A stretch of DNA of 64,000 nucleotides from Acidimicrobiia bacterium (GTDB lineage Bacteria > Actinomycetota > Acidimicrobiia > Spongiisociales > ZC4RG35): positions 310,001 to 374,000 of the forward strand of contig JANQOU010000006.1 in NCBI GenBank assembly GCA_028285585.1, given 5' to 3'. Position numbers and translations under genes: made by a program. The notes below the pieces were generated by a model. It had not been told where the DNA came from. It ran no database searches and saw only the letters and a program-made list of their open reading frames with translations. This document shows, one piece after another, positions 50,013 through 53,742 of this stretch (positions are counted from its first letter, which is position 1; the number at the start of each line of letters is the position of its first letter).

Positions 50013-51668
50013 ATGTCCTCGGCGGTCGCCCCACTCAAATACCCGCATTTTCGCTGGTTGTGGGCAGGAAACATCTTCTCGGCCTCGGGCACCTTCATCC
50101 AAGCCGTAGCCGGGTCGTGGCTGATGTTCGAGCTGACCGGATCAAACGCCTGGGTGGGTCTGATGGTGGCTTCGGCCACGCTGCCACTCCTCTTCTTCGC
50201 CCTCACCGCCGGAGCGCTGGCGGACATGTTCAAGAGAACCAATCTGATGCTGATCGCTCAGGGCATCATGGGTGCCTCGGCCGCGACCATGGCCGTTCTC
50301 AGCTATCTGGACCGGATGACGCCTGGGATCCTGCTCACACTTGGCCTGACTCTGGGGACAGGACTCGCTTTGAACATCCCCGCGTGGCAAGCCCTGGTTC
50401 CCGATCTGGTCCCACGTGGCCTGATCGCCTCGGCGGTGGCACTCAACTCGGCAGCGTTCAACGCTGCTCGAGCAATAGGCCCGGCATTCGGCGGAGCGCT
50501 TGTGGTCGCCTACGGAGCCGAAGCAGGATTCGCGGTGAACGCGTTGTCATATGTGGCAATCATCATCGCTCTGATCACGATCGGGCCCCAGCTGGAGAAG
50601 ACCGACCGAGAGACACCACAGTCGATGAGATCTGCCATCTCGGTGGGGATCAGGTTCGCCAGGTTCACTCCCATGTTCCGCAACCTGATGACGTTGGTGG
50701 CTCTCTTTGCAATCACCTCCGCAGTCGTTCAAGCAGTGCTCCCCGTGCACACCGACCATCTGGGCGGGACGGCGGCATCCTTCGGCCTTCTCTACGCCGC
50801 CATGGGGGCGGGTGCCCTCACCGGTGCCATCGTCCGTCCCAGGATCTCGAGTTGGTTCGCCAGCTCCTGGGTGCCCTACACGATCAGCCTCTTCGGAGGG
50901 GCCGGAATACTTCTCGGCCTGGCCCCGAACATCTGGGTAGCAGGAGTCGGCATGTTCTTCGCCGGGCTCTTCTGGCTGCTGACCCTGGCAACTCTCAACG
51001 CCACTGCGCAGCTGCTTTCACCTGCGTGGATCAGAGGGCGGGCGATGTCGATCTACACACTGGCGTTCGCCGGAGTCTTGCCGATCGGATCAATACTCTC
51101 TGGCCTGGTTGCCGACCAGATCGGGACGTCGGGCTCGCTGCTCGTGTTCTCCTCAGCAGCCGTTCTGCTGGGCATGGCCAGCCCCCGGCTCAAGATCCCG
51201 GCGATCGACGAGGTCGAGAGCCCTGAGTTCAGCGTCGACAGGGCGAGCGCCGCCCACCAAGACAATGACGTCTCTCTCGAAGGCGGGCCGGTCATCGTGC
51301 TCAACACATGGAAGATCGACGAGGCGGCCTTTGGCGACTTCACATCTCTGATGAACGACATCAGGCTGGTCCGGCTGAGCACCGGCGCCTACAGGTGGCG
51401 GCTATTCAGATCGACGTCCGATCCAACCCGGCTCACCGAGATGATGGCTGTGGAGAGCTGGGAGGAGCATCTCCTGCAACACGGCCGGATAGACGACACA
51501 TCGGCTGAGCTGATACGACGAGCAAGGACCTTCGACATCAACGGCGGCCCTAGGACGAGGCACCTCATCGCAATCGATGTTGCCCATCCCCCCGAGTTTG
51601 ACGAGCTGGTGGCCACCCACGACGAGCTTCACCGGACCGACGGGTCGATTCCCTATCCCGATCGATAG
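50013..51668 (+). CDS. MFS transporter of the transmembrane secretion effector (MFS_3) type with C-terminal domain
   Basis: The 551-residue protein has about 12 membrane helices in residues 1-390 (starting NIFSASGTFIQAVAGSWLMF, with ADMFKRTNLMLIAQG as the loop between helices 2 and 3 and the paired ARAIGPAFGGALVVAYG). A soluble tail of about 140 residues follows: VIVLNTWKIDEAAFGDFTSL, GAYRWRLFRSTSDPTRLTEM and VAHPPEFDELVATHDELHR. A cytosolic tail of this type is common in pfam05977 MFS exporters and has an antibiotic-monooxygenase-like (dimeric alpha-beta barrel) appearance. Substrate unknown. Confidence 0.87.
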   Translation: MSSAVAPLKYPHFRWLWAGNIFSASGTFIQAVAGSWLMFELTGSNAWVGLMVASATLPLLFFALTAGALADMFKRTNLMLIAQGIMGASAATMAVLSYLDRMTPGILLTLGLTLGTGLALNIPAWQALVPDLVPRGLIASAVALNSAAFNAARAIGPAFGGALVVAYGAEAGFAVNALSYVAIIIALITIGPQLEKTDRETPQSMRSAISVGIRFARFTPMFRNLMTLVALFAITSAVVQAVLPVHTDHLGGTAASFGLLYAAMGAGALTGAIVRPRISSWFASSWVPYTISLFGGAGILLGLAPNIWVAGVGMFFAGLFWLLTLATLNATAQLLSPAWIRGRAMSIYTLAFAGVLPIGSILSGLVADQIGTSGSLLVFSSAAVLLGMASPRLKIPAIDEVESPEFSVDRASAAHQDNDVSLEGGPVIVLNTWKIDEAAFGDFTSLMNDIRLVRLSTGAYRWRLFRSTSDPTRLTEMMAVESWEEHLLQHGRIDDTSAELIRRARTFDINGGPRTRHLIAIDVAHPPEFDELVATHDELHRTDGSIPYPDR

Positions 51669-52342
51669 GTCTGAGCGAACGCCATTTCCCGTCGGAACTT
51701 CTTCCAGTCCGACTTGGTAGTCGACCAGAGCACATCGGTGATCACACTGACCACCCCGACCAACACCAAGGCCCAGACGACCCAAGCGGGCAGACCGGCG
51801 GCAACCGCCGGGACGATGAGGGCGAACGGGACGATCTTGGACACGATTGCACCCGAGGCGTGCATCCACGCTCGCCGCTTCGGCGCGGTGCTCAGGTATG
51901 ACGAGTAGTCGACCTTGACGCCTGGCTGGGGCCGGCCAATCGTCCCGACGAACCAAGCAGTGAATCGAATGCCGACCAGTCGCCCCACGACGAGATGGGC
52001 GAGCCCGTGGGTGGCTACGAAGATGACCCCGAACCCGGCCAGGAACATGACAATCGCCGGCCAATCCTCGAAGGAGTAGGCAAGGCCTACCAGCACACCG
52101 CCGACGGCCACTGCCAGCCAGGCGAGAGCAGTTCCCGCGCCTTGAGGGATGACGAGGAGAGCCCAATTGCGAAAGGCCTGCTGATCGATCCCAGCAACAC
52201 GCTCGGCGTGGCCCTGGAGCAGGGTGGGATTCTTCTTCATCTCGGCGACGGCCGGCCAGAAGCCGGTGCCGGCCAACCCATCCCCGGCTTTGACGGCGGC
52301 TTCGGCTCTGGTCAGCGCCTGGTCAATGTCAGACGGACCCAT
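51653..52342 (-). CDS. Site-2-protease-like membrane protein with degenerate metal motif
   Basis: From ATG 52342 the product is 229 residues: a soluble helical N-terminus, then about five membrane helices. THGLAHLVVGRLVGIRF (from residue 111) sits in a helix like the HExxH motif of M50 site-2 proteases, but reads HGLAH, so the catalytic glutamate is missing. The following PQPGVKVDYSSYLSTAPKRRAW, then ASGAIVSKIVPF, resemble the family's loop and small-residue-rich second helix. It may be an inactive homologue or another metal-binding membrane protein. It overlaps the MFS gene by 16 bases and diverges from the sigma gene at 52405. Confidence 0.6.
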   Translation of the reverse strand: MGPSDIDQALTRAEAAVKAGDGLAGTGFWPAVAEMKKNPTLLQGHAERVAGIDQQAFRNWALLVIPQGAGTALAWLAVAVGGVLVGLAYSFEDWPAIVMFLAGFGVIFVATHGLAHLVVGRLVGIRFTAWFVGTIGRPQPGVKVDYSSYLSTAPKRRAWMHASGAIVSKIVPFALIVPAVAAGLPAWVVWALVLVGVVSVITDVLWSTTKSDWKKFRREMAFAQTYRSG

Positions 52343-52404
52343 CTGGCAATGATAGGTACCGTCAAAAAAGTGCAACCGTCGAGGCACCACAGGGTTCTTC
52401 TCAC

Positions 52405-52923
52405 ATGATGGATGAGATAGGCAAAGCTCTCGCCACCGATCTGGACGGCGCCTTCCCGACAGTGGTCGAGCAGATGGGAAAACGCCTGTACTGGGGTCTG
52501 CGGAGAATGTCGGCAGATCACCAGGAGGCAGAGGATCTCACCCAAGAGACCTTCATCCGCGCCTATCGGGCTCTCGGTGGCTACGACAGCCAGCGGATAC
52601 ATGAGCTGCGTCTCGAAGGCTGGCTCTGGACCATCGCCCTCAACTTGGGGCGAAACCACGCACGAGACCGCGCTCGACGGCCGACCTATGTGGAGTTGCA
52701 GGAGAAGGGTGTGGAGGATCCCGAGGTTGCCGACGGAGCTGCCTGGGACCGGCGCCTGAGCGCACTCAACAGCCATCAAAGGACCGCCGTCGTCCTGAGG
52801 CACGTCAACGGCCTCGGCGTAGGCGAGATCGCCGAGGCCACCGGACGCCCCGAGGGGACGGTGAAAGCCGACATCCATCGCGGACTTGCACGTTTGAGAG
52901 AAGTACTGGAGGACGAAGAATGA
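52405..52923 (+). CDS. ECF-type sigma factor coupled to the Ogt/Ada fusion gene
   Basis: The 172-residue protein contains region 2 (MGKRLYWGLRRMSADHQEAE, DLTQETFIRAYRALGGYDSQ, LEGWLWTIALNLGRNHARD) and region 4 (LSALNSHQRTAVVLRHVNGL, VGEIAEATGRPEGTVKADIH). The short form lacks any extra domain. Its stop overlaps the start of the alkylation-repair gene as ATGA at 52920, so both are made together. No anti-sigma gene is adjacent; either the fusion protein acts as partner or regulation is transcriptional. A second ATG at 52408 is an alternative start. Confidence 0.92.
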   Translation: MMDEIGKALATDLDGAFPTVVEQMGKRLYWGLRRMSADHQEAEDLTQETFIRAYRALGGYDSQRIHELRLEGWLWTIALNLGRNHARDRARRPTYVELQEKGVEDPEVADGAAWDRRLSALNSHQRTAVVLRHVNGLGVGEIAEATGRPEGTVKADIHRGLARLREVLEDEE

Positions 52924-53678
52924 GCATCGATACGCAACTTGCGCAGTTGATTGGCGATCTGCCGGCCGGGACCAGCGAGGGGGTGGCTTTGGGCACGGGG
53001 ATGGCGGACGGATTCGACATCTACCCAACCGCCATTGGGGATGTCGTTGTTAGTTTCAACCCAGAAGGTGTCTCCTCGGTCGACATCGCCGATGACACCT
53101 TCACCCAACGATTCGAGAGCCGGTTCGACCGTCCACTGCTGCGAGCCGAGCCACCAAAGGACTGGGGACGGCACATCCCACAGGCACTCGATGAGGGGAG
53201 GCCGGGCAAGCTGCCCGTCGATCTCAGGTCGGTGACCCCGTTTCAAGCGGAGGTGCTGGACCGAACGGCGACCATCCCGAAGGGGGAAGTCCGGCCATAC
53301 GCATGGCTGGCCAACGAAGTCCAGAGACCAAAAGCGGTGCGGGCCGCTGGCTCGGCGGTGGCGAACAACCCGATTCCCCTCATCATCCCGTGCCATCGGG
53401 TGGTGCGGTCAGATGGGCACGTCGGCAACTACTCCTTGGGCGGGCCTCACAACAAGGAGGAATTGCTGGAGTACGAAGGAGCGCCACCTCAGTGGCTCGA
53501 GGATCTGGCGGGCAAGAGAATCCGGTTGCGGGGCAACACCTCAACAGGGATCGTCTGCCACCCCACCTGCCGCGCCATCAGGAGATCGAAGGAGTCGAAC
53601 GTGATCGACTTCCGCAGTTTGGGCGATGCCGTCGACGCGGGGTACCGGCCCTGCGAGTTGTGCCGCCCCACCCCCTGA
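52920..53678 (+). CDS. Methylated-DNA-protein-cysteine methyltransferase fused to Ada-type zinc domain
   Basis: The 252-residue protein joins two repair domains. Residues about 30-190 form an O6-alkylguanine methyltransferase with its acceptor cysteine in LIIPCHRVVRSDGHVGNYSLGG (Cys158). Residues 205-250 are an Ada zinc domain: TGIVCHPTCRAIRRSKESNV with Cys213 and Cys217, then GYRPCELCRP with Cys245 and Cys248, matching the E. coli Ada spacing C-x3-C...C-x2-C. In E. coli Ada the zinc domain comes first and an AraC domain follows it; here the order is reversed and no AraC domain is present. The upstream ECF sigma gene suggests that it senses methylation damage. SD GGAGGACG precedes ATG 52920. 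Confidence 0.9.
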   Translation: MSIDTQLAQLIGDLPAGTSEGVALGTGMADGFDIYPTAIGDVVVSFNPEGVSSVDIADDTFTQRFESRFDRPLLRAEPPKDWGRHIPQALDEGRPGKLPVDLRSVTPFQAEVLDRTATIPKGEVRPYAWLANEVQRPKAVRAAGSAVANNPIPLIIPCHRVVRSDGHVGNYSLGGPHNKEELLEYEGAPPQWLEDLAGKRIRLRGNTSTGIVCHPTCRAIRRSKESNVIDFRSLGDAVDAGYRPCELCRPTP

Positions 53679-53695: not shown

Positions 53696-53742
53696 TTGCT
53701 ATAGCAAGCCGTCGCGCTGAGCGACACGCGTTGCTATAGCAA
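53696..53742. repeat. 47-bp dispersed palindromic repeat, copy 2 (inverted relative to copy 1)
   Basis: TTGCTATAGCAA occurs at 53696-53707 and 53731-53742 around a 23-base core. The unit is the reverse complement of 14474-14520 except for one base in the core. Bases 53743-53763 (GGTGTGTCGGTCAGCGCGAC at 53743-53762) add a further inverted half-copy of the core, so the larger structure spans about 53690-53765. It lies between the Ogt/Ada gene and tkt, both on the plus strand. Confidence 0.85.

Follow-up and report, generated by a model that had tools for sequence, protein, structure and literature searches.

The window analysed here is a stretch of 64,000 nucleotides from contig JANQOU010000006.1 of an Acidimicrobiia bacterium, and its positions are counted from its first letter. 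Within it, an ECF sigma factor gene and the gene of a DNA-repair protein overlap on the forward strand behind a putative promoter. The features of this locus are as follows.

52371..52397, + strand: putative ECF-type promoter, TGCAAC-N17-GTTC, with 7 nt between it and the start codon of sigma
52405..52923, + strand: ECF sigma factor gene, 172 aa, with sigma2 and sigma4 regions only (Pfam/NCBIfam)
52920..53678, + strand: Ogt-Ada(Zn) fusion gene, 252 aa (Pfam), sharing ATGA with the sigma gene
52920..53009, + strand: N-terminal extension of Ogt, residues 1-30, with L7, L10 and P15 nearly invariant
53010..53483, + strand: O6-alkylguanine-DNA alkyltransferase (AGT) domains (Pfam DNA_binding_1), with a profile match to the C-terminal domain of E. 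coli Ada (1sfe, 1e-31)
53391-53393, + strand: codon of the acceptor Cys158 in the PCHR motif, invariant in 46/46 relatives
53526..53669, + strand: Ada-type Zn domain with Cys213, 217, 245 and 248 (Pfam Ada_Zn_binding), with a profile match to N-Ada10 (1adn, 2.7e-9)
53556-53558, + strand: codon of Cys213, the first cysteine of the Zn domain

An initial annotation had described this locus as an ECF sigma factor gene joined by a stop/start overlap to a reversed Ogt-Ada fusion. That description holds: both open reading frames are present, the sigma stop and the fusion start share the four nucleotides ATGA, and Pfam recovers the domains of both proteins. In the sigma protein these are Sigma70_r2 (1.1e-13, residues 21-92) and Sigma70_r4_2 (1.8e-13, residues 114-164), and a protein of fewer than 200 aa with regions 2 and 4 only is by definition an ECF (group 4) sigma factor. 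In the fusion, an AGT domain (DNA_binding_1, 1.8e-27, residues 107-187) precedes Ada_Zn_binding (3.2e-12, residues 205-250), and Pfam finds no AraC/HTH_18 domain, bearing out the reading that the order is opposite to that of E. coli Ada and that the AraC part is missing. The AGT fold and the PCHR acceptor cysteine identify the protein as an Ogt/AGT; the same fold appears in the predicted model of a relative, L074 (Z 17.0 against 1sfe). The cysteines were also correctly assigned, as Cys158, 213, 217, 245 and 248 are all invariant among 46 relatives whose mean column identity is 58%.

The surroundings of the pair are less constant. Across the intergenic stretch that contains the sigma promoter lies a divergent gene (51653-52342, - strand), which encodes a membrane protein of no Pfam family, with the motif THGLAHLVVG. 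Between the fusion and transketolase genes the palindrome TTGCTATAGCAA occurs twice (53696-53707 and 53731-53742) and is a possible transketolase operator. The divergent membrane gene, MFS_3 and transketolase were considered as members of the unit and rejected, because they adjoin the sigma gene only in close relatives.

Conservation of the sigma-Ogt pair and its promoter

Loci were picked by likeness to the repair protein, and the presence of a sigma gene was not a criterion. A relative of the repair protein is present in 127 of the 138 genomes of the host's order, and a sigma gene lies directly upstream on the same strand in 84 of 90 fetched loci, with the exact 4-nt overlap in 77 of those 84. 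The adjacency of sigma and Ogt is far beyond chance in this order. Outside it, the pair is found in Nonomuraea, Thermobifida fusca, Actinoallomurus, Pseudonocardia and Streptosporangium, as well as in metagenome-assembled genomes labelled in their records as Chloroflexota, Dormiibacterota and Thermomicrobiales; these relatives came from an alignment query, an earlier contig scan with a single protein having given none.

The fusion and sigma pair was thus sought in other genomes and found there. Among distinct loci with a C-terminal Zn domain, 123 of the 125 that can be evaluated carry a sigma gene directly upstream; the two that do not are from Nostoc (L130) and Methylomirabilota (L131), and three more end at contig edges. 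A sigma gene also precedes Ogt without the Zn domain in 31/45 loci, and E. coli-type Ada in 0/9. Among the loci viewed, no further regulator gene is a recurrent neighbour of sigma. Judged by this coupling of genes, the sigma-Ogt pair is a conserved unit that spans several bacterial phyla.

In the sigma tree, the compact pairs of sigma and Zn fusion, including that of the window, form one clade (support 95/84), and a separate one (98/96) holds the sigma factors of Rhodococcus, Psychromicrobium and Speluncibacter that have a Zn-less Ogt as their partner. Because distinct ECF lineages pair with Ogt, the pairing may have arisen more than once. In two further loci, L126 and L132, the ECF sigma gene stands 250-300 nt upstream of the Ogt-Zn fusion and is of another, only distantly related kind, perhaps another independent pairing.

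A promoter-like element, GCAAC-N18-GTT, stands upstream of sigma in 80 of the 84 sigma-linked loci of the host's order, and the best pattern in a shuffled-sequence control reaches only 8/84. The copy in the window has a 17-nt spacer, one base shorter than the consensus, and the sigma transcript is probably leaderless. The element is kept in Nonomuraea, Thermobifida fusca and Chloroflexota, and takes the variant form GAAAC in the actinobacterial family f36. Since the motif tracks sigma across classes and phyla, TGCAAC-N18-GTT is best read as the sigma factor's own promoter, and its near-invariance argues that the sigma-Ogt operon is probably autoregulated. A second sigma copy with the same promoter (L221, G074:C29) was seen in the genome that also carries L017.

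Candidate regulon

Across the 138 genomes, the strict motif TGCAAC-N15-GGKGTTC occurs at 122 sites, compared with 10 for the reversed control; the relaxed form TGCAAC-N17/18-GTTC, with 8 sites in the host genome and 13 for the control, is uninformative alone. We examined 40 further strict sites outside the mapped sigma-Ogt loci, one of which turned out to be a second sigma copy. EamA-type transporter genes follow 18 of the 40; in 17 cases the gene starts 7-12 nt past the motif, and in L209 the distance is 33 nt. Three more sites precede PQ-loop genes and two precede MFS transporter genes, the families having been assigned by Pfam searches of representatives. About 15 of the 40 look like chance, matching the control expectation.

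The link to an exporter extends to the host and to other lineages. In the host, CGCAAC-N15-GGTGTTC stands 9 nt upstream of the start codon of the EamA gene (G000:C12:4541-5461, - strand), whose product is 67% identical to a promoter-linked target in a relative. Independently of the motif, the fusion is followed at once, or nearly so, by EamA in three loci of Chloroflexota (L096, L097, L105) and three of family f36 (L181, L185, L190), and in L185 the two overlap. In a fourth locus, L192, a second Ogt-like (AGT-like) gene sits between fusion and EamA. Through most of the host's order, EamA is unlinked to the pair.

Other genes behind such sites vary with the lineage. Six Nonomuraea genomes, and Streptosporangium as well, have a second strict site in front of an SDR gene (L264-L269, L272), and in one genus PQ-loop membrane genes of SemiSWEET-like type (L241, L243, L245) start 6-9 nt after the promoter. 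As these sites suggest, the output of the sigma factor looks like export and detoxification, differing by lineage. EamA is mostly unlinked and Nonomuraea has SDR in its place among the targets, and the regulon therefore does not name the inducer. Two genera share, at 59% identity, an open reading frame in which an HhH-GPD DNA glycosylase is fused with a signal-peptidase-like S26 segment (L233:2073-2972 and, in the host, L277 at C8:11882-12799), and a sigma promoter site precedes it in L233. The glycosylase was rejected as a regulon member, since the host homologue has no promoter and the L233 site is unshared.

The Ogt extension and a predicted complex

What is constant across the sigma-linked proteins is the Ogt domain and an N-terminal extension of about 30 residues. 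The extension measures 25-50 aa in most sigma-linked relatives; the sigma-less fusions have room for less, no more than 10 aa in L131 and 23 aa in L130. It has no sequence relative in the PDB, and a Pfam search to E 0.1 finds no class I anti-sigma domain in the Ogt fusion.

In L074 the two genes share a reading frame, and translation through the sigma stop therefore yields a natural sigma-Ogt chain. The AlphaFold2 model of this read-through (450 residues), judged by its scores and by structural matches, reaches a pLDDT of 93.5 and a pTM of 0.84, for a single pair whose tether favours contact and with an alignment of mostly unpaired rows. Residues 5-187 of its sigma part match CnrH as bound by CnrY (Z 17.5, 2.2 Å over 154 residues), and likewise SigW-RsiW and RpoE-NepR, with Z of 16-17.5 across the closed complexes, whereas RNAP-bound sigma factors fit only at 22-27 Å. 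The sigma factor is thus predicted to be held much as an anti-sigma factor would hold it.

Modelling sigma with the Ogt extension alone, at an alignment depth that differs from that of the full run, gives a pTM of 0.51, with no match over the full length closer than 7 Å, and the extension alone was rejected as a sufficient clamp on sigma. If sigma moved freely against Ogt, the expected pTM would be roughly the fraction of the chain that the larger body makes up, some 0.6. Because pTM is 0.84 with Ogt and 0.51 with the extension alone, the closed state of sigma appears, within the model, to depend on the Ogt body. In a mean-field covariation analysis of 121 sigma-Ogt pairs (effective 105), the scores between the two proteins did not rise above noise.

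Proposed mechanism and known systems

We hypothesize that Ogt is at once the repair enzyme and the cytoplasmic inhibitor and sensor of its ECF sigma factor, releasing sigma upon alkylation, and we think this somewhat probable. The gene coupling, the promoter and the exporter link are read from the sequences and the complex is predicted, whereas the inhibition of sigma, the alkyl trigger and the substrate of the exporter are what we infer here. Unalkylated Ogt would clasp sigma2 and sigma4 in a closed, inactive form until an alkyl group from O6-alkylguanine was transferred irreversibly to its Cys158. Alternatively, the trigger could be Zn-bound Cys213, alkylated by an alkyl phosphotriester or directly by an electrophile. 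Alkylated Ogt would alter its shape or be lost, and the sigma factor so released would transcribe TGCAAC-N18-GTT promoters. Among these, its own operon would renew Ogt and close the loop, while lineage-specific detoxification genes, above all the EamA/DMT exporter, would be driven as well. It is possible, if short of probable, that the suicide repair enzyme is itself the anti-sigma factor in a stoichiometric sense: each lesion repaired would consume one inhibitor and free one sigma. In other words, the cell would count its damage and respond by renewing the repair enzyme and inducing an exporter for the alkylating compound.

The same operon could be explained with Ogt as merely a target, the sigma factor being controlled by its expression level or by another protein, ogt being co-transcribed since repair is one output of the regulon, and the AlphaFold2 contact being an artefact of tethering. 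Ogt is a target under any model, as the operon bears the sigma factor's own promoter, and the comparable group ECF122 has been reviewed among those of unknown mechanism without an anti-sigma factor (PMC8999054). We nevertheless regard this explanation as unlikely: it leaves unaccounted the exact translational overlap retained across phyla, the extension that sigma-linked Ogts have and the sigma-less L131 does not, the rise in pTM from 0.51 to 0.84 that requires the Ogt body, and the want of any other recurring regulator gene in the loci viewed. Quite improbable, in our judgement, is that Ogt acts as a positive partner, so that the alkylated, damage-bound protein recruits or activates sigma as methylated Ada does with RNA polymerase. 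E. coli Ada does contact the polymerase (PMC4437013), but the sigma predicted here is closed and inhibited, 22-27 Å from its RNAP-bound counterparts.

The initial annotation had suggested another signal, methylation of the Ada-type Zn domain (here at Cys213), with sigma rather than an AraC domain receiving it. The zinc-ligand cysteines, C-x3-C ... C-x2-C, are indeed invariant in 46/46 relatives, and nearly every C-terminal-Zn fusion (123/125) is linked to sigma. However, the domain has been lost in genera of the same family and in other clades (L036, L041, L044-L048, L054, L060, L080-L084) that keep the sigma factor and the overlap and, for the most part, the promoter. Ada R45 and R71 read the A box (PMC4437013); their equivalents, residues 220 and 247, are A/I and V/L, with Arg at 247 in 3/46. 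The fusion thus has neither the A-box contact arginines nor the Zn-AraC HTH-AGT order of an E. coli-type Ada regulator. Because several lineages drop the domain and keep sigma and overlap, it is probably no obligate relay but an addition to the system, either a sensor that accepts methyl groups or a further repair site. It could serve as a second sensor; the relay is not the conserved core of the system, and we consider it rather doubtful. The wider idea of an alkylation-response module fared better, gaining the conserved pairing, the promoter, the exporter regulon and the predicted complex while losing the Zn relay as its conserved centre.

The textbook adaptive response relies on Ada. The sigma-Ogt unit would be an alternative to it that is widespread among Actinomycetota, Chloroflexota and their relatives and couples an alkyl-repair protein to a sigma factor whose promoter is defined. 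It would also link DNA repair to small-molecule export, hinting at a diffusible alkylating metabolite as the inducer, and cultured hosts such as Thermobifida fusca and Nonomuraea render the circuit testable.

Sigma-Ogt adjacency itself is already catalogued as ECF122, a group with a conserved neighbouring 6-O-methylguanine DNA methyltransferase, no known anti-sigma factor and a mechanism listed as unknown, whose model member is WP_057211282.1 from Cellulomonas sp. Root930 (PMC8999054). Our proposal offers a concrete mechanism for that pairing. The window sigma likewise has an O6-methylguanine methyltransferase as its conserved neighbour; we liken it to ECF122 by this gene neighbour. By sequence, the sigma factors paired with Ogt fall into two separate clades, either of which may be ECF122. 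The Zn domain, promoter and exporter of the window unit go unmentioned in the ECF122 review (PMC8999054). In a literature search that covered few subscription papers and took the ECF classification from a review, the promoter, the exporter regulon and the Zn-fusion linkage appear unreported, and we found no report of the second sigma lineage or of a predicted sigma-Ogt complex.

Like E. coli Ada, the fusion unites an AGT and a four-cysteine Zn domain in one protein and, as proposed here, ties alkylation sensing to transcription. Unlike Ada, it has its domains reversed, has no AraC domain, does not keep the A-box contacts and has a sigma factor for a partner. The modelled sigma adopts the same closed shape as in CnrH-CnrY, RpoE-NepR and SigW-RsiW, although the protein it is paired with is a DNA-repair enzyme that does not resemble CnrY, NepR or RsiW in sequence. 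In SigR-RsrA and SigH-RshA, a cytoplasmic cysteine-based redox sensor is encoded with its ECF sigma factor in an autoregulated operon. The arrangement that we propose is similar, with a cysteine-based cytoplasmic sensor beside an ECF sigma factor in an autoregulated operon. It differs in that the fusion has no Hx3Cx2C anti-sigma domain of the RsrA/RshA kind, and its cysteines are the predicted alkyl-accepting sites of a repair protein.
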